A DNA stretch of 64,000 nt, from positions 16,619 to 80,618 of the forward strand of contig ONEB01000010.1 of assembly GCA_900316745.1 (NCBI GenBank), in the 5' to 3' direction. The notes below the pieces were generated by a model, which was not told the DNA's origin, ran no database searches, and saw only the letters and a list, made by a program, of their open reading frames with translations. The position numbers were made by a program, and so were the translations under genes. Each line of letters starts with the position of its first letter. Position 1 is the first letter of the stretch. This DNA is from an uncultured Eubacteriales bacterium (lineage in GTDB: Bacteria > Bacillota > Clostridia > Oscillospirales > Oscillospiraceae). Of the stretch, positions 5,668 through 12,957 are shown one piece after another.

Positions 5668-6306
5668 TCACTTTTTTCGTTTTCTTCCGACAAGGATGTA
5701 CACAAGGCACAGCGCCGCGATGATCCCGATGGCGAGGATCGCGCAGTTGCGGAAATAGACCTCCGGCAGAATCAGGATGATCTCGTCCAGGTCGGGGTCA
5801 AACAGCCAGTTGGTTTTTCCCGGGAAAAAGATGTGGTGAAACACCGTGAACGCGCGGTCAAAGTCCGTCGCGCCCCATGCGGCGATCACGGCAAAGAGCG
5901 CGAGCACGCCCCAGCCCGCCCAGAACGAAGCGCCGCGCCCGAGCGGTCGCGCGGGCTTGACGCGCCGCAACAGCAAAAGCAGTACCGCCAGCGTCAGCGC
6001 AGAGCAGCCCAATACCCACAGATCCAGCCGAAACAGCACGCCGACGTCGGCAAAGTGCGTGCGCCCGGTCTCCGTCCAGCCAAGGTCTCCCGTGCTGAAC
6101 GTGCCGCCGCGCAGACAAAAGCGCATCACGTCGTCATAAGCCTCCAGGATCGTCTTCTCCGAAAAGCCGGTCTCCGCCGGGAGATTCAGCGCGTGGACGT
6201 GCGCGACATAAAACGAGCGCGAGAGGATCGGCGCCGCGATCCCGGCACTGACGGCAAAGAGCGCGAGCGCGATGATCAAAAATGCGCATTGAAGCTTAGA
6301 TTTCAT
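5668..6306 (-). CDS. Integral membrane protein of the TIGR01906/DUF1461 family
   Basis: The 212-residue protein has a signal-anchor-like N-terminus, one helix around residues 95-112, one around 130-150 and one near the C-terminus (about 185-205), with a K/R-rich tail. The pattern of an external loop carrying YDDVMRFCLRGG and a later FHHIFFPGKTNWLFDPDLDEIILILPEVYF matches the DUF1461 family, whose members typically keep the FHxxFF..D.W motif. Function is unknown; the family is common in Clostridia and lactobacilli. It overlaps the upstream YhhN-like gene by 11 bases, so the two are translationally coupled. lysA follows after 75 bases, with no clear functional tie. Confidence 0.8.
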   Translation of the reverse strand: MKSKLQCAFLIIALALFAVSAGIAAPILSRSFYVAHVHALNLPAETGFSEKTILEAYDDVMRFCLRGGTFSTGDLGWTETGRTHFADVGVLFRLDLWVLGCSALTLAVLLLLLRRVKPARPLGRGASFWAGWGVLALFAVIAAWGATDFDRAFTVFHHIFFPGKTNWLFDPDLDEIILILPEVYFRNCAILAIGIIAALCLVYILVGRKRKK

Positions 6307-6958
6307 CAGCCAAACCTCCGAAGCTGTCTGTGGATAGAACGATCAGCACCTGCCCGGGGAGATAAAACGCCCACATGGCGAGACTTGCAAACCCCGAGAG
6401 CGCGTTTTGCGGCAGATTGTGCAGCCCGACGCAGAGATCGCACAGGAAAAAGAGCCCGAGTCCCACAGCAAAGCGCACCGCGCGCTTTGTGCGCAGGTGC
6501 GCCGCTGCCGCAACGCTCTGCGCAAGATTCATGAAAAACCAGACGATATACGCAACCGCGAGCATTTCAAGCTTGCCGAAATGCGCGCTCACCAGATACG
6601 CCGCGAAGAGCGCAAGCATCCCGCGCGCCGTAAAATGGAGCGTCCGGTTCGCGCCGCCCATGGCGCAGAGCCGGCAGGTGTACAAGGCCTGTACGCACAG
6701 GAAGAGCGCCACGCCCGCAGTGTAGTGCGCGTCGAGCACCAGCAGAAACACGTCCGCCGCCGCCGTGAGCACGAGCGCCGCCGCGACGAGCCGACCGTCC
6801 GCTGTTTTTACCGCCGTGAGCCCTGCGAGTACGACGAGCACGATGGCGGCAAACTTCAGCCATGTCGCCGCGGCAGGGGACGCGCCCGACAGATCCAGCG
6901 TCAGAAACGCGGCATAGAGCGCCGCTTCCAATATCAAAAACAGCCGTTTCATCCGCAC
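6296..6958 (-). CDS. YhhN/TMEM86-like multi-pass membrane protein (lysoplasmalogenase family)
   Basis: The 220-residue product is almost wholly hydrophobic with about seven to eight helices. TAAADVFLLVLD, GVALFLCVQALYTCRL, AVRFAVGLGLFFLCDLCVGLHN and FYLPGQVLIVLS line up by eye with the YhhN family, whose animal member TMEM86B cleaves the vinyl ether of lysoplasmalogens; the conserved acidic residues (DVFLL, CDLCV) are kept. Some gut Clostridia contain plasmalogens, so such a role is possible but not shown. The start is GTG at 6958 with GGAGG six bases upstream, better placed than the ATG six bases later. It heads the unit that continues into DUF1461 and lysA. Confidence 0.6.
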   Translation of the reverse strand: MRMKRLFLILEAALYAAFLTLDLSGASPAAATWLKFAAIVLVVLAGLTAVKTADGRLVAAALVLTAAADVFLLVLDAHYTAGVALFLCVQALYTCRLCAMGGANRTLHFTARGMLALFAAYLVSAHFGKLEMLAVAYIVWFFMNLAQSVAAAAHLRTKRAVRFAVGLGLFFLCDLCVGLHNLPQNALSGFASLAMWAFYLPGQVLIVLSTDSFGGLADEI

Positions 6959-7106: not shown

Positions 7107-7125
7107 TATGGTGTGATACACCATA
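7107..7125. promoter_or_regulatory. Perfect 19-bp palindrome upstream of the sensory hydrogenase
   Basis: TATGGTGT (7107-7114) and ACACCATA (7118-7125) are perfect inverted arms around GAT. The site lies 48 bases upstream of the hydrogenase start, in the divergent region shared with the YhhN-like gene. It has the size and symmetry of an operator for a dimeric regulator; the regulator is not identified. No clear -35/-10 pair can be fixed here. Confidence 0.5.
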
Positions 7126-7172
7126 TTTCGCACAGGCAGAGTGCCTTGCGTATTTTTGTGGAGGACAATTCG

Positions 7173-8870
7173 ATGGAAATTCTGAAATTCAATCAGGATG
7201 CTTGCAAAAACTGTTATAAGTGCGTGCGTTACTGCCCGGTCAAATCCATGCGTGTGTACAAGGGCCTGCCGCAGATCATTCACAATGAGTGCATCGTATG
7301 CGGCAACTGCGTGAGTGTTTGCCCGCAACACGCCAAGTATGTGGTGAGCGAGGTCAAGCGCATCAAGGAGCTCATCCGCGCAGGGAAGCAGGTCGTTGCG
7401 AGCGTGGACTCCACCTATCTTGCCTACTTTGAGACGCCCGGCTTCTCCGGCGTGCGGCAGGCGCTGCGCACGCTCGGCATGTCCGAGGCGTATGAGACGG
7501 CAGAGGGCGCGCAGCTGGTCGAGCGCCAGCTCGAGATCCTTGTCTCCCGCGCCGAGGGCAGGCCCGTCATCACGTCCGGCTGCCCGTCGATCGTGCTCTA
7601 CGCCGAGAAGCACTTCCCGGAGGCGCTGCCGTATCTCGCGCCGGTCCTGTCCCCGATGCAGGCGCACGCGCAGATCCTGCGCCAGCGCTGCCCGGGCGCC
7701 GTGATCGTCTATATCAGCCCCTGCATCGCCCGCAAGGAGGAGACCAAGGACTTCGAGAGCGTGGGCGCGGACTATGCGATCACGTTTGATGAGCTCGCCG
7801 CATGGATGGCAGAAGCGGGCGTGAAGGTGCCCGCGGATGTGGAGCCCGATGAGCCGAAGATCTCGCGCGGCTATGTCGTCACCGGCGGCGTCGAGGACGG
7901 CATGACCCATCTGATCGGCGTGGACTATCTCGCGGTCGATACGCTTGATGACTGCATCAAGGTCATGAAGTGCGTCGCAGACGGCGGCCTGACCGACTGT
8001 GTGATCGAGATGTCCGCCTGCCACGGCAACTGCATCGGCGGCATGGTGTTCTCCCGCAAGGATCGCAACCTGCTGGAATCCCGCAAGCGTATCGAGAACG
8101 CGTCGGCGTACAACGGCGGCGACTACGACATCTCCGAGCGCATCGACCTATATCGCGCCATGGAGGATCACCACATCCGCAAGGAAGAGGACGTTCCCGA
8201 CAGCGCCATCACCGGCATCCTGCGCAAGATGGGCAAATTCACGGCTGAGGATGAGATCGACTGCGGCCTGTGCGGCTATGCCACCTGCCGCGAAAGCGCG
8301 CGGGCAATCTATGAGGGACGCGCCGAGGTCAGCATGTGCCTGCCCTATATGAAGGAGAAGGCGGAGACCTACTCCGAGAAGATCATCAACGTCTCCCCGG
8401 AGGGCATCATCACCGTCAGCAAAAAGCTCAAGGTCAAGCAGATCAACAACGCCGCCTGCCGCATCTTCGGCATCAAGGACCCCTCGGACATCATCGGCTA
8501 TCCTGTCAGCCGCATCATGGATGAATATGATTTCGTCAAGCTCATGAGCATTGACGATACGCAGTATACGGACCAAATCTTCCTTGCTGAATACAACGTC
8601 TACCTCGAGCGGATCTTCATCTGCGACCCGCAGCGCACGATGTTCACCTGTATCATGCGCGACGTGACCCGCTCCCGTCAGCGCAAGAGCCAGGTGCAGA
8701 AGACCAAGCTCCACGCGGCGGACATTGCCGACAACATCGCCGACAAGCAGCTGCGCATCGTACATGAGATCGCAAGCCTCCTCGGCGAGACCGCCGCGGA
8801 GACAAAGGTTGCCGTGCACGATCTGAAGGAAGCGATCCTGCTGGATGAGGATGATGACGATGCGGAATGA
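7173..8870 (+). CDS. Sensory-type [FeFe] hydrogenase with PAS domain (HsfB-like)
   Basis: The 565-residue protein has two 4Fe-4S ferredoxin motifs (cysteines 11, 14, 17, 21 and 40, 43, 46, 50), an [FeFe] hydrogenase H-cluster domain (about 85-345), a further Fe-S motif CGLCGYATC with C389 (about 360-390), and a PAS domain (about 397-490). All four H-cluster cysteines are present: C137 in TSGCPS, C184 in SPCIARKEE, C283 and C287 in ACHGNCIGG. The cysteine that carries protons in catalytic enzymes (first C of TSCCP) is glycine here, and the usual MPC and KK residues are altered. That pattern, with a PAS domain and an adjacent phosphatase, fits the group C sensory hydrogenases rather than an H2-producing enzyme. 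No signal peptide; cytosolic. ATG 7173 has GGAGG eight bases upstream. The gene overlaps the phosphatase gene. Confidence 0.88.
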   Translation: MEILKFNQDACKNCYKCVRYCPVKSMRVYKGLPQIIHNECIVCGNCVSVCPQHAKYVVSEVKRIKELIRAGKQVVASVDSTYLAYFETPGFSGVRQALRTLGMSEAYETAEGAQLVERQLEILVSRAEGRPVITSGCPSIVLYAEKHFPEALPYLAPVLSPMQAHAQILRQRCPGAVIVYISPCIARKEETKDFESVGADYAITFDELAAWMAEAGVKVPADVEPDEPKISRGYVVTGGVEDGMTHLIGVDYLAVDTLDDCIKVMKCVADGGLTDCVIEMSACHGNCIGGMVFSRKDRNLLESRKRIENASAYNGGDYDISERIDLYRAMEDHHIRKEEDVPDSAITGILRKMGKFTAEDEIDCGLCGYATCRESARAIYEGRAEVSMCLPYMKEKAETYSEKIINVSPEGIITVSKKLKVKQINNAACRIFGIKDPSDIIGYPVSRIMDEYDFVKLMSIDDTQYTDQIFLAEYNVYLERIFICDPQRTMFTCIMRDVTRSRQRKSQVQKTKLHAADIADNIADKQLRIVHEIASLLGETAAETKVAVHDLKEAILLDEDDDDAE

Positions 8871-10038
8871 TAAGCTTCGAAACAAAACCCTGGTCTGGGA
8901 CATCGGCTTTGTGACCCGGTGCAAGAACGGGGAGACCATCTGCGGCGACCACTGCGTCATCAACAGCGACGTCGAAAAAACGATCGTCCTCTCCGACGGG
9001 CTCGGCAGCGGCGTAAAGGCGAACATTCTCTCCACGCTGACAGCCAAGATGCTCGCGCGCATGCTCGAGGGCAACGTGCCGCTTGACGAGTGTGTCACCA
9101 CAGTCGCCGAGACGCTCCCGATGTGCAAGGACCGGAAGCTCGCCTACGCCACGTTCACGATCGTGGAGACCGCCGGTCAGGCGGTCACGCTCGTGCAGTA
9201 CGATAATCCCCGTGCGGTGTATATCCATGACGGAAAGGTGCAGAAATACGGCTACACAGCGCACTTCATTCAGGACAAGGAGCTGCACGAAAGCCGCTTC
9301 CAGTTCAGCGCCGGCGACATGCTGATTCTCTTCAGCGACGGCGTGGCGGAGGCCGGACGCGGTCTGACCACGGTGTCCGGCTGGCCGGAGGACGAGATGC
9401 ACGATTTCATGGAGCGCAACTATACGCCCGACTGCTCCGCGCAGAAGATGGCAGCGCTGATCCTCTCGTGCGTCCAGTCTCTGGATCTGGACGTCATGCA
9501 CGATGATACGACCATCGCCGTGCTGCGCCTGCGCCCGCGCATGGCGGCAAACGTCATGATCGGACCTCCGGAGAACAAGGACGACGATCTCGGGACGATG
9601 CGCCTGTTCTTCGCCAAGGAGGGCAAGCACGCCGTCTGCGGCGGCACGACCGCAAAGGCGGTTGCAAACCACCTCGGCGCGCGCGTGCGCGTCCTGCCCG
9701 ACACGGGCACGGAAGAGGTTCCGCCCATGAGCGAGATCACCGGCGTCGACCTCGTCACCGAGGGCGCCGTCACGCTGCAGGAGACGATCCGACTCATTGA
9801 GCTCTATCAGAAAGACGGCCTGCTCACGCTCGAGCTTGAGCGCCGCAAGGACGGCGCTGCAAAGCTGGCAAAGCTTCTTTGCGAGGAGTCGACGGAGGTC
9901 AACATCCTCTTCGGCAACGCCTCGAACAGCGCCATGGACGATACGGAATTCAGCTTCTCGCACAAGCTTCAGCTCATGCAGCAGCTGCAGACCGTGCTGG
10001 AGGCTGCGGGAAAGCGTGTGAAAATCAGCCTCTGCTGA
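8860..10038 (+). CDS. SpoIIE-type PP2C-like serine phosphatase with unknown C-terminal domain
   Basis: The 392-residue product has a SpoIIE/PP2C phosphatase domain over about residues 10-230, with the metal-binding aspartates visible in LSDGLGSG, FSDGVAEAG and HDDTTIAVLRL. Such enzymes dephosphorylate serine or threonine, often on anti-sigma-factor antagonists. The remaining 150 residues, including LFFAKEGKHAVCGGTTAKAVA and a run of mixed alpha/beta sequence, I do not recognise. There is no receiver or membrane segment, so the signal probably comes from the hydrogenase encoded immediately upstream, whose gene overlaps this one by 11 bases. ATG 8860 has GAGG nine bases before it; earlier in-frame ATGs at 8845-8854 are worse placed. 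Confidence 0.82.
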   Translation: MRNDKLRNKTLVWDIGFVTRCKNGETICGDHCVINSDVEKTIVLSDGLGSGVKANILSTLTAKMLARMLEGNVPLDECVTTVAETLPMCKDRKLAYATFTIVETAGQAVTLVQYDNPRAVYIHDGKVQKYGYTAHFIQDKELHESRFQFSAGDMLILFSDGVAEAGRGLTTVSGWPEDEMHDFMERNYTPDCSAQKMAALILSCVQSLDLDVMHDDTTIAVLRLRPRMAANVMIGPPENKDDDLGTMRLFFAKEGKHAVCGGTTAKAVANHLGARVRVLPDTGTEEVPPMSEITGVDLVTEGAVTLQETIRLIELYQKDGLLTLELERRKDGAAKLAKLLCEESTEVNILFGNASNSAMDDTEFSFSHKLQLMQQLQTVLEAAGKRVKISLC

Positions 10039-10063
10039 CAGGAGCATCAGAAAGGAGCAGACC

Positions 10064-10771
10064 ATGACCCGACGAACCCGGACCATCCTCATCATCGTGA
10101 TCCTGATTCTCGCGCTCATCATCGGCGGCTATTTCTATTACCGCGCGCATTTTCAGGTCTATGTCGATACCGCGCGGATGCTCGACTCCGTCTATAACGC
10201 CGAAAAATCCGACATCAGCTACACCGTTGCGCTCAACGGAAAAGAGCTGAATGTCAAATTCCGCACCGTGAAATTCCCGGTCGGGGACGGCGGGAGCGCC
10301 ATGAAGATCGATGTGGAGGGGGATTATCTCTCTCATACTTTCTATAAGGTCAACGGGCGCAGCTACGACGACGAAAACGCGCTCGAGCGGGTCATCCCGA
10401 AAAACTTTATGAGCCTGCTGCAATGGGGCGCGGACGTATACAGCTCCGATCTTTCCATTGACCGCATCCGCGACGGCGCGCGCACGGTCTATACGGTCCA
10501 GGTTCCGGACAGCATGGTACAGTCCTTCATGGATCGCTATCTGGAGGGACTGGACAAACTGAATCTGACGTATTCCGACTGCACGATGTATCTCACCACC
10601 GTGGACGGACAGGTTTCGGAGCTGACGCTGCAGGGCAATACAAAATACAAAGTGCTTGTCAGAGAGGCGAGCACCATGATCACCGTGCGTGCGCAGGTGA
10701 ATGCCGTCGGCGACGCGGTCAAAGTGCCGTCGCTGCCGCAGGACGTTCAGTTCGCCATGCACAGTACATAA
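10064..10771 (+). CDS. Membrane-anchored protein of unknown function
   Basis: The 235-residue product starts with positively charged MTRRTRT, then one hydrophobic helix (about residues 8-24), and about 205 residues of predicted extracytoplasmic beta-rich sequence without cysteines. That is the layout of a signal-anchored lipid- or wall-associated domain. I do not recognise the family. AAAGGAG lies ahead of the ATG. It is 25 bases after the phosphatase gene and 24 before murT, so it is cotranscribed with both and could link the redox-sensing pair to the cell envelope, but nothing in the sequence proves that. Confidence 0.75.
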   Translation: MTRRTRTILIIVILILALIIGGYFYYRAHFQVYVDTARMLDSVYNAEKSDISYTVALNGKELNVKFRTVKFPVGDGGSAMKIDVEGDYLSHTFYKVNGRSYDDENALERVIPKNFMSLLQWGADVYSSDLSIDRIRDGARTVYTVQVPDSMVQSFMDRYLEGLDKLNLTYSDCTMYLTTVDGQVSELTLQGNTKYKVLVREASTMITVRAQVNAVGDAVKVPSLPQDVQFAMHST

Positions 10772-10795: not shown

Positions 10796-12166
10796 ATGAA
10801 TTTTCGAGTATTTCTTGCAGTTTTATGCTGCAAGATCACACGCTTTCTGATCCGCCTCGTCGGGCGCGGCGGCACCGCCATGCCCGGCAGGATCGCATTG
10901 AAGATCTGCCCGACCGTCCTCGGCAGGCTCTCGCAGGGCGTGCGGACGATCCTCATCACGGGCACGAACGGCAAGACCACCAGCGCCCGCATGATCGAGC
11001 AGGCGTTCATTGACCAGAAGCGCAGCTATCTCGCCAACAAATCCGGCGCAAACCTTATTTCCGGCATCACGGCGGAGTTTGCCATGCAGAGCACGCTTTT
11101 CGGACGCTGCAAAAAAGAATTTGCGGTCATCGAGTGCGACGAGGCCGCGTCCAAGACCGTGCTGAAGTATCTTAAGCCTGAGGTCATCGTCGCGACGAAC
11201 GTCTTTCGCGATCAGCTCGACCGCTACGGCGAGATCACGCACACGCTGAACAACATCATCGAGGGCATTTCGCATTCTCCGGATTCGCTCCTGTGCCTCA
11301 ATGCAGATGATTCGCTCATCGCCTCCATTCCGGAGCATGTGCCGAACAAGACCGTGTTCTTCGGCATCAGCGTGCCGCTGGAAGCGGGCGACAGCGCAGA
11401 GCTCTCCGACGCGCCGCACTGCATTCACTGCAAGACGGAGTATGTCTATGACTACCGCACCTACGGACACCTCGGCGGCTTCCGCTGCCCGAACTGCGGC
11501 TATGCGCGTCCGGTGCCGCAGTACGCCGTCACGGAGATCGCCTCGCAGGATGCCGATTCCAGCAGCGTGACCATGGATCTGAACGGTAGAAACCTGTTTT
11601 TGCACATCAATCTTCCCGCTGTTTATAACATCTACAACGCCGCCGGCGCCGCTGCTGCGCTGGACGCGTTCGGCTTCCAGCGCGCCGAGATCGCAAGCGC
11701 GCTCGCAAGCTTTGACTGCGGCTTCGGGCGCATGGAGAAGTTTGATCTCGAGGGGACGCCCGGGCGCATGATGCTCGTGAAAAACCCCGCCGGCTGCAAT
11801 CAGGTCATGCGGTATCTCGCTGCGCTCAAGGATCCGGCGGAGTTCGTCGTGTGCCTGAACGACAATGACGCCGACGGCACGGATATCTCATGGATCTGGG
11901 ACGCGGACTTTGAGCGGCTTGCCACCATGGGCGACCGCCTTGCGCGCGTACTCGTCTCCGGCGTCCGCGCCGAGGACATGGCGCTGCGGCTGAAGTATGC
12001 CGGCGTCCCTGTCGAACGCATGGAGATCATTCATGATTACGCAGCGCTCATCGATGAGATGTGCAGGAGCGAGGACCGCGTCTTTATCATGCCGACCTAT
12101 ACGGCGATGCTGGATCTGCGCAGCCAGCTGCAGAAGCGCCTCGGCGGAAAGGAGTTCTGGGAATGA
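10796..12166 (+). CDS. murT: Lipid II isoglutaminyl synthase, Mur-ligase-like subunit MurT
   Basis: MurT with GatD amidates the alpha-carboxyl of D-glutamate in lipid II, at the inner face of the membrane. The 456-residue product shows the Mur ligase P-loop TGTNGKTTSARM near residue 57, the central VIECDEAASKTVLKYLKPEV and NVFRDQLDRYGEI stretch, a Cys4 zinc ribbon CIHC...CPNC (about 215-240) typical of MurT, and the C-terminal DUF1727 region with NDNDADGTDISWIWDADFE, including the aspartates that act with GatD. The length is normal. The next gene begins inside its stop codon (ATGA), so the two subunits are translationally coupled. It ends the transcript that begins with the sensory hydrogenase, unless an internal promoter exists. 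Confidence 0.95.
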   Translation: MNFRVFLAVLCCKITRFLIRLVGRGGTAMPGRIALKICPTVLGRLSQGVRTILITGTNGKTTSARMIEQAFIDQKRSYLANKSGANLISGITAEFAMQSTLFGRCKKEFAVIECDEAASKTVLKYLKPEVIVATNVFRDQLDRYGEITHTLNNIIEGISHSPDSLLCLNADDSLIASIPEHVPNKTVFFGISVPLEAGDSAELSDAPHCIHCKTEYVYDYRTYGHLGGFRCPNCGYARPVPQYAVTEIASQDADSSSVTMDLNGRNLFLHINLPAVYNIYNAAGAAAALDAFGFQRAEIASALASFDCGFGRMEKFDLEGTPGRMMLVKNPAGCNQVMRYLAALKDPAEFVVCLNDNDADGTDISWIWDADFERLATMGDRLARVLVSGVRAEDMALRLKYAGVPVERMEIIHDYAALIDEMCRSEDRVFIMPTYTAMLDLRSQLQKRLGGKEFWE

Positions 12167-12912
12167 GCACAACAAAGCTGCAAATCTGCCACCTGTATCC
12201 CGATCTCCTGAACCTCTACGGCGACCGCGGCAACATCCTGTGCTTCCGCCGCCGTCTGGAGTGGCGCGGACTCGAGGCCGAGATCACCGAGGTCGGCGCC
12301 GGCGATACGGCGGACTTTACGAGATTCGATCTCATCTTCATCGGCGGCGGACAGGACTTTGAGCAGGAGGTTCTGCTCTCCGATCTCCGCAGCGGAAAGG
12401 ACCGCGAGCTGAAAGCCGCCATCGAGGACGGCAAAACCGTTCTTGCCATCTGCGGCGGGTATCAGATGCTCGGTAATTACTATAAGACATGGGACGGTCA
12501 GCAGTGCGATTTCATCGGCGCGATCGACCTCTATACCATCGGCTCCAGGGAGCGCATGATCGGAAACTTCGCGTTTGAGTGCGGCGCTGCCTCCGGCGGC
12601 AGCACAGTTGTCGGCTTTGAGAACCACAGCGGCAAGACCTATCTCGGCGCGGGCGTCGAGCCCCTCGGCAGGATTCTCGCCGGCGGCGGCAACAACGGCT
12701 CTGACGGCACCGAGGGCGTGCGCTACATGAACGTCTTCGGCACATACAGCCACGGCCCGGTGCTGCCGAAAAACCCGGAGTTCTGCGATCACATTCTTGA
12801 GACGGCGTTCCGCCGCAGGGACGACAGCTTCCGTCTGCCGCCGCTGGACGACGCCGTTGAGCGCGCCGCGCACGACGCCATGGTCAAGCGCGTCGTGGGG
12901 CAGAGCAAATAA
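12163..12912 (+). CDS. gatD: Lipid II isoglutaminyl synthase, glutamine amidotransferase subunit GatD
   Basis: The 249-residue class I (triad) glutaminase supplies ammonia to MurT. Landmarks are HLYPDLLNLYGDRGNI near the start, FIGGGQDFEQ, the nucleophile cysteine in VLAICGGYQMLG (about residue 94), GFENHSGKTYLG, and the catalytic histidine in GTYSHGPVLPKNPEF. It is the normal length and lacks the C-terminal triad glutamate of classical members, as GatD does. ATG 12163 overlaps the murT stop by four bases, which rules out the longer in-frame start at 12061. A bidirectional terminator follows 12 bases beyond the stop. Confidence 0.95.
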   Translation: MSTTKLQICHLYPDLLNLYGDRGNILCFRRRLEWRGLEAEITEVGAGDTADFTRFDLIFIGGGQDFEQEVLLSDLRSGKDRELKAAIEDGKTVLAICGGYQMLGNYYKTWDGQQCDFIGAIDLYTIGSRERMIGNFAFECGAASGGSTVVGFENHSGKTYLGAGVEPLGRILAGGGNNGSDGTEGVRYMNVFGTYSHGPVLPKNPEFCDHILETAFRRRDDSFRLPPLDDAVERAAHDAMVKRVVGQSK

Positions 12913-12924
12913 GCGCAAACATTC

Positions 12925-12957
12925 ATCGCCGCAGGCCTTTCGGTCTGCGGCGATTTG
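12925..12957. terminator. Bidirectional terminator between gatD and gluQ
   Basis: ATCGCCGCAG and CTGCGGCGAT form a 10-bp stem whose top GCC/GGT closes a TTTC loop. The two genes converge here, so it can serve both. Confidence 0.7.

Follow-up and report, generated by a model that had tools for sequence, protein, structure and literature searches.

What does a hydrogenase-like protein do when its gene runs directly into that of a protein phosphatase, and have the cell-envelope genes that follow anything to do with the pair? The question is raised by a locus in a window of 64,000 nucleotides (the whole stretch of DNA that was analysed) from an uncultured Eubacteriales bacterium of the Oscillospiraceae, a gut-type member of the Clostridia (GenBank assembly GCA_900316745.1, contig ONEB01000010.1, positions 16,619 to 80,618), where HydS, a sensory-type [FeFe] hydrogenase, is encoded upstream of a predicted SpoIIE/PPM-type Ser/Thr phosphatase. 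The gene pair is real and not a product of chance. Our interpretation, to which we give a probability of about two in three, is that a group C3-type HydS and a dedicated SpoIIE/PPM phosphatase would form a two-protein signalling unit, in which the HydS tail may gate the phosphatase and the neighbouring genes would be incidental. It is based on the domain make-up, the intact cluster ligands, the metal motifs of the phosphatase, the near-constant pairing of the two genes across the order and the relocation of the pair within the genus.

Domain structure and class of HydS

The HydS gene, delimited by translation, profile scans and a tree, occupies 7173..8870 of the forward strand and encodes 565 residues; it begins with the ATG at 7173, 5' of which stands a GGAGG, and has its stop at 8870. 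The preliminary description had placed the start at 7107, in the same open frame but 66 bases ahead of this ATG. Two Fer4 stretches at residues 11-50 (7203..7322) form two ferredoxin-type [4Fe-4S] sites, whose 8 cysteines are conserved in 107/107 HydS sequences, and are followed by the H-cluster domain PF02906 (residues 91-290; 7443..8042; profile 2e-38), in which the ligands C137, C184, C283 and C287 are exactly those described before. C-terminal to the hydrogenase domain, the profile scan found two further domains above cut-off: a [4Fe-4S] motif, PF04060, at residues 362-391 (8256..8345; 2.5e-9) with C364, C367, C372 and C389, and the PAS domain that had been predicted, at residues of about 402-497 (8376..8663; PAS_8, 1.4e-5). 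All 16 Fe-S cysteines are kept in each of the 107 aligned sequences. The two most conserved 15-residue blocks in this alignment are the C-terminal cluster motif at 361-375 (mean 0.88) and the tail at 526-540 (mean 0.87). The latter belongs to a C-terminal helix at residues 526-555 (8748..8837; QxRIVxEIASLLGETxAETKxAxxxLK), which by its conservation we propose as the output helix; its IASLLGETxAETK stretch reads alike in the window, Ruminococcus albus (R. albus) and Monoglobus.

The cysteine that would carry protons to the cluster is truly replaced by glycine, as had been claimed: Gly136 (codon 7578-7580) stands at the proton-shuttle position in the motif TSGCPS. By our own motif-based alignment, the equivalents of C299, M353 and M497 of CpI are G136, S182 and S281, an alteration of the sensory kind, this trio being described as altered in sensory enzymes (PMC10055695).

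HydS scores far below the cut-offs of both NCBIfam group A profiles, TIGR02512 (73 bits, cut-off 406) and NF040763 (69, cut-off 765), and of the group B profile TIGR04105 (159 bits, cut-off 450). In a quick tree of 17 proteins, which carries a long-branch warning among HydS, 10 HydS sequences (R. albus included) stand apart from 7 enzymes of the catalytic kind, of which four are encoded near HydS in relatives and three belong to the genome of the window, with a Shimodaira-Hasegawa-like approximate likelihood ratio test (SH-aLRT) value of 99. Scores and tree uphold the earlier assignment to sensory-type, phosphatase-linked group C rather than group A, and a placement among the catalytic group A enzymes, the outcome named in advance as telling against it, did not occur. 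By its domains, ligands, altered trio and linked phosphatase gene, HydS fits [FeFe] group C3 of HydDB, where the class is named 'phosphatase-linked (putative)' and its role is listed as undetermined (PMC5037454). As in that class, an H-cluster hydrogenase with a C-terminal cluster and PAS lies beside a Ser/Thr phosphatase. For C3 members, co-transcription with an H2-evolving hydrogenase is reported (PMC6163223), whereas the HydS of the window is not near any such enzyme, and a HydA match near HydS was found in 0/10 loci of the genus within the flanks examined.

The phosphatase

The phosphatase gene (8860..10038, forward strand; translation and profile scan) encodes 392 residues and overlaps that of HydS by 11 bases. 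This overlap had been reported before and is borne out by the ATG at 8860, which is common to 6 aligned close relatives; an alternative ATG at 8845 has no counterpart at that place in 6/6 of them. The phosphatase domain PF07228 covers residues 42-224 (8983..9531; 1.8e-18; SpoIIE score 67.6 bits against a cut-off of 25). Asp46, Asp160 and Asp215 lie inside it and Asp30 just ahead of it; these four residues, which we take to be metal-binding, each reach a conservation of at least 95% in an alignment of 54 sequences, that of the window included.

Beyond the catalytic domain, residues 228-392 (9541..10035; from the alignment) form a conserved C-terminal domain without a Pfam family, which is present also in R. 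albus and Monoglobus and is about as conserved as the SpoIIE domain. The statement that the phosphatase has no sensor of its own therefore stands for known domains, but leaves out this conserved domain. In the HydS-linked phosphatases the domain carries conserved GPP, CGG and VDLxTEG-like motifs. A likeness to phosphoheptose isomerase was not accepted, the sole solved match having an E value of 0.008 over 52 positions. Purifying selection is apparent in both genes: compared with the relative at locus L127 (78% and 64% identical), the proportions of non-synonymous and synonymous differences (pN/pS) are 0.15/0.48 for HydS and 0.25/0.50 for the phosphatase.

Pairing of the two genes across genomes

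HydS is present in 10/10 genomes of the genus and in 83/295 of the order. Among 120 genomes of the family, searched at E values up to 1e-60 for HydS and up to 1e-20 for the phosphatase, the two proteins co-occur in the same 20, and at those cut-offs neither was found in the other 100. We compared 108 HydS loci (the window, 19 from the family, 8 further ones from the genus and 80 from the order, three partial order matches being excluded), and the phosphatase adjoins HydS in 104 of them. Two of the remaining four (L034, L244) are cut by contig ends and two (L240, L241) have a phosphatase-like protein; in 106/106 loci with intact flanks, the next gene is a phosphatase (104) or phosphatase-like (2). 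An unlinking of the pair in close relatives, which the preliminary description had named as the result to look for against it, was not found; in the distant Acetoanaerobium noterae, weighed below, the two genes are unlinked; strict linkage was given up as a rule on account of this species, which lies outside the order.

L240 (3961-4995) and L241 (6665-7690) are second HydS copies, each followed by a phosphatase-like protein of 341-344 aa that lacks the metal-binding Asp motifs. A comparison by hhalign shows its kinship with the phosphatase (probability 94%, E 1.2e-7), and it is likely a pseudophosphatase. A contig search with a single protein gave 8 loci, 6 of them from close relatives. Three unverified faecal scaffolds filed as phage, MT835503, MT835845 and MT835859 (L258, L259, L260), carry HydS-phosphatase-hydrogenase clusters with [2Fe-2S] genes and are probably bacterial DNA; MT836102 is a fourth, weaker match among phage records.

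Operon setting and the shuttle cysteine

Most loci outside the genus have a small thioredoxin-like [2Fe-2S] gene just upstream of HydS and HydA nearby, often together with AdhE and an aminoglycoside phosphotransferase-like (APH-like) kinase. None of these four was found beside HydS in the window or in the other 9 loci of the genus, within the flanks examined. The shuttle position is occupied by Gly in 9/9 HydS sequences of the genus that cover position 136, and across 107 HydS by Cys in 81, Ala in 14, Gly in 9, Thr in 2 and His in 1; Gly136 was rejected as a mark of the system. The absence of the cysteine is, besides, less remarkable than had been implied, since only 17% of sensory hydrogenases are reported to have Cys there, cysteine loss alone being common, and the Thermotoga maritima enzyme TmHydS, with Ala at the shuttle site, is described as still active (PMC10055695).

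Among 104 sequences with at least 600 bases upstream (L031, L192 and L194 were dropped), an adjacent [2Fe-2S] gene accompanies 72/78 HydS with the cysteine and 6/26 without it (naive Fisher 2.7e-11), and among the 81 with wide flanks HydA lies nearby in 56/64 and 1/17, respectively. On the tree the Cys label changes 6 times, and there are only 4 independent pairs on well-supported branches, of which on average 3 agree, 0.2 are opposite and 0.8 show no difference (median p 0.25). Counter-cases exist in both directions: L227-L229, L232, L242 and L243 have the [2Fe-2S] gene without the cysteine, and in L035, L037, L208, L218, L226 and L240 the cysteine is present and no such gene was found. The tendency of the shuttle cysteine to be kept beside a [2Fe-2S] gene and to be lost where there is none is thus suggestive only, because independent events on the tree are few. 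What is new here is the joint disappearance from the genus of the cysteine and of the usual operon neighbours, AdhE, kinase, [2Fe-2S] protein and HydA; such joint loss is seen again in L038/L039 and in L043/L046 (the latter a long-branch join), a recurrence that is not significant on the tree.

Comparison with studied systems

The closest studied relatives of the pair are the R. albus HydS and HfsB/HfsC of Thermoanaerobacterium. On pRUMAL01 of R. albus 7 (NC_014824.1) the order is Rex, adhE, phosphotransferase, two [2Fe-2S] genes, HydS, SpoIIE and hydrogenase. HydS and phosphatase (the latter 38.5% identical over 98%) are homologous to ours over their full length, including the C-terminal domain of the phosphatase and the HydS tail, and the two genes likewise overlap, by 8 bases. 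The R. albus enzyme differs in having Cys at the shuttle site, and its cluster in containing Rex, AdhE, the APH-like phosphotransferase, two [2Fe-2S] genes and a hydrogenase. An eight-gene cluster of R. albus is reported to fall 111-fold in co-culture, and H2 sensing with a phosphatase subunit was proposed for it (PMC6776011); from its gene content as published, we infer that this cluster is the pRUMAL01 locus.

By its published description, hfsABCD of Thermoanaerobacterium likewise includes a PAS-containing sensory hydrogenase, HfsB, and a serine phosphatase, HfsC, and its genetics is reported to support a regulatory role (PMC5707799, PMC11837493): in T. saccharolyticum, deletions of hfsA/B divert flux to ethanol and those of hfsC/D to lactate (PMC5707799). 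There the pair is linked to the hydrogenase HfsD, whereas the pair in the window has no hydrogenase neighbour. TmHydS, as described, is of the sensory type, has PAS and a Ser at the M497 position and lacks the shuttle Cys, but has Ala in its place, where the HydS of the window has Gly136 along with Ser182 (PMC10055695). For the phosphatase, the published account of Bacillus subtilis RsbP/RsbQ and RsbU/RsbT offers a parallel, in that a SpoIIE/PPM phosphatase is controlled by PAS or by a partner through a helical linker, and coiled-coil linkers between sensor and phosphatase are reported to switch or activate PPM phosphatases (PMC12143880). The pair in the window differs in that sensor and phosphatase are separate proteins, in the use of a hydrogenase as the sensor, and in the additional C-terminal domain of the phosphatase.

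Neighbouring envelope genes

Downstream of the pair, on the same strand, lie the genes for P0003 (10064..10771; 235 aa, with an N-terminal membrane helix as read from the sequence and without a Pfam family), MurT (10796..12166) and GatD (12163..12912), the last two identified by profile scans; all three are neighbours that probably stand outside the system. The close spacing of these genes, which follow at intervals of 25 and 24 bases and then with an overlap of 4, suggests that they are cotranscribed with the pair. A hairpin 3' of gatD, at 12927-12952, was seen by eye and was not flagged by a promoter and terminator scan; in that scan, 2 promoter-like sites compare with a mean of 2.0 in shuffled sequence, and 7 terminator-like sites with 4.6.

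Among the 10 genomes of the genus, P0003 is present in 6 and MurT in 8, MurT not having been found in G397 and G403 (assemblies 82% and 57% complete). The preliminary description had proposed looking for the recurrence of the hydrogenase-phosphatase-membrane protein order, and the full gene order of the window was found in only 2/10, the window's own genome and G079. In G396 and G398, murT directly follows the phosphatase without P0003, and in G399, G400, G401 and G402 the P0003-murT-gatD set is on a different contig from the pair. In G399, G400 and G402 the next gene upstream of this set is homologous (45% identical) to the one at 6296-6958 of the window, so that the site looks like that of the window minus the HydS-phosphatase pair. 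The pair itself has other neighbours in the unlinked cases; in G399, for example, it is preceded by a MutY-like gene and followed by genes for a membrane protein and a VTC-domain protein ('MutY-like' and 'membrane' being our own readings). P0003 is directly 5' of murT in 6/6 genus genomes that have it, and therefore belongs with murT rather than with HydS. The P0003 family is nearly limited to the one genus, with 2 weak matches (E 0.004 and 0.007) in the 120 family genomes sampled. The murT-gatD neighbours of the pair are thus probably there by chance.

Discussion

For the mechanism of such a two-protein unit, it can be envisioned that the H-cluster, the PAS domain and the conserved C-terminal helix of HydS gate the phosphatase in trans, the HydS tail replacing the coiled-coil linker that joins sensor to phosphatase within the RsbP or RsbU chain. 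The tail is proposed as such a linker because it is highly conserved and because PPM phosphatases are switched by coiled-coil linkers. The phosphatase would then dephosphorylate a regulatory protein, most plausibly one in control of genes for fermentation and hydrogenases at other sites of the genome. In this genus the unit has left its ancestral operon, and Gly at the shuttle position fits a sensor that needs no turnover.

Several findings weigh against this interpretation. The structure model of HydS failed, with a mean predicted local distance difference test (pLDDT) score of 31, and lends no support to the helix proposal, and that of the phosphatase is weak (pLDDT 60) and only confirms the SpoIIE fold (5mqh, E 1.7e-10); the helix model accordingly rests on conservation. 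No linked target, kinase or hydrogenase was found in the genus within the flanks examined, and fermentation as the output is carried over from relatives whose operon is different. In Acetoanaerobium noterae, of another order, the phosphatase (35.8% identical) and HydS (29.9% identical) are 0.88 Mb apart on one 2.6-Mb record, with no phosphatase match within 6 kb of HydS, which is no argument against a shared function since both genes are retained, and which leaves our probability for the unit as it was. The phosphatase of this species (L256, 6998-8179; HydS is at L257, 6001-7707) lies between CoA-transferase-like genes and a threonyl-tRNA-synthetase region, as we read them. Finally, a complete H-cluster cannot be taken for granted: a search for HydG (TIGR03955, E up to 1e-20) gave no match in 10/10 genus genomes, and HydF does not pass its cut-off in the window's genome (92.5% complete) as well as in G396 (93%), G398 (97%), G397 and G403.

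Two readings follow from this, an unusual route of maturation or sensing by the [4Fe-4S] clusters of HydS alone. The latter, in which HydS has no complete H-cluster and is a redox sensor for ferredoxin or NADH poise rather than an H2 sensor, we consider unlikely. The lost shuttle residue is in its favour, as are the maturases: HydF is over cut-off in only 5/10 genus genomes (in G400 as two pieces) and the window's genome has neither protein at the cut-offs, though a different genus of the family does have HydG (L045, 1.5e-278). Yet HydS retains all H-cluster ligands, the genome also encodes a hydrogenase of group B and two further HydA proteins that carry the TSCCP motif, which points to some maturation route, its assembly is 92.5% complete, and in the published account of Clostridium acetogens a motif search missed HydG in 5/8 species, where the authors suspected an atypical homologue (PMC9431212). 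In our own control, HydG gave matches in 4/14 named genomes, Thermotoga maritima among them, and was over cut-off in 1. That HydS is mainly a slow catalytic hydrogenase, its phosphatase link being incidental, is extremely improbable: TmHydS is reported to turn over despite its Ala (PMC10055695), but the lack of a linked redox partner in the genus, the near-constant phosphatase pairing, the PAS domain and the conserved tail speak against it.

The remaining alternatives concern the output. Were the SpoIIAA sporulation switch the substrate, H2 or redox state would be tied to the onset of sporulation, which the SpoIIE type of the phosphatase might suggest, as might a spoIIA-like grouping of STAS, anti-sigma-type ATPase and sigma-factor genes in the genome (L106; names by our own reading). 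We judge it decidedly improbable, since a full-length SpoIIE-like gene in a congener (L245; 796 aa, 334.5 bits against a cut-off of 490.8) should serve SpoIIAA, and relatives place the pair among fermentation genes. Very improbable, too, is the control of envelope chemistry by H2 or redox state that the preliminary description had advanced, the output or target being P0003, MurT-GatD or partners of these. The single strand and the short gaps in the window speak for it, and murT comes directly after the pair, with or without P0003 between, in 4/10 genus genomes; but in another 4/10 the P0003-murT-gatD set has other upstream neighbours, P0003 is absent in 2 more and lacks a good match in the rest of the family, and MurT occurs on the HydS strand near HydS in 0/80 order loci and 1/19 family loci (that of the congener G079), over flanks of about 5 and 9 kb, which are shorter where a contig ends. 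As the linkage is not conserved, judging by synteny in the 10 genus genomes and neighbour searches in the 108 HydS loci, envelope coupling was given up as the leading model.

Some of the maturation genes have settings of their own. In G399 (L245, 8553-19048) and at L246 and L247, a hydF-hydE cluster without hydG includes a TM1266-type regulator; in G399, G401 and G402, hydF-hydE adjoin one gene that is NifH-like and two that are nitrogenase-component-1-like, and in G399 genes for HypD and HypF are also close by. The other genus has TM1266-hydE-hydG-hydF at L045 (2147-6201). Maturases were also sought on contig 27 of the window's genome (G000), where none was identified and the GTPase match is not IF-2.

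A candidate substrate can be suggested from the same genome, where a search for STAS found four places, one of them in the spoIIA-like gene set. Two more make up L105 on contig 24 (322-1497 and 1510-1809), where a 99-aa free STAS protein is directly followed by a 391-aa protein joining STAS to an APH-type kinase domain; the pair of the window is on contig 14, so the two are unlinked. In its kinase half, the fused protein is similar to the kinase of the R. albus cluster (23% identity; E 4e-11 when three sequences are compared and 1.7e-7 in a search of all loci examined), a likeness that is a lead only, because the APH fold is a large superfamily. An APH-like kinase shares the HydS gene cluster in many relatives, and the STAS-fused counterpart occurs in the window's species. 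The orphan HydS-phosphatase might then serve as the 'off' arm in a partner switch gated by H2 or electrons, in which the APH-like kinase phosphorylates a STAS serine and the phosphatase reverses this, the H-cluster being assembled or replaced without HydG; we regard this as quite unlikely. A literature search on the idea, requiring four of five relevant terms, found nothing. If true, it would amount to a sigma-factor-type switch on an aminoglycoside-kinase fold, read by a hydrogenase, and would yield a candidate substrate.

Conclusions

The locus represents a known kind of system, real and conserved, in a stand-alone variant free of the usual fermentation genes. The literature examined, as far as its accounts go, names no substrate for phosphatase-linked sensory hydrogenases, a group that bears on ethanol and H2 yields and on the flow of H2 in rumen and gut. 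With no kinase, ferredoxin or hydrogenase neighbours, the pair is a minimal system for how an H-cluster talks to a phosphatase, and the conserved HydS tail and the C-terminal domain of the phosphatase would be concrete parts of the signalling path.

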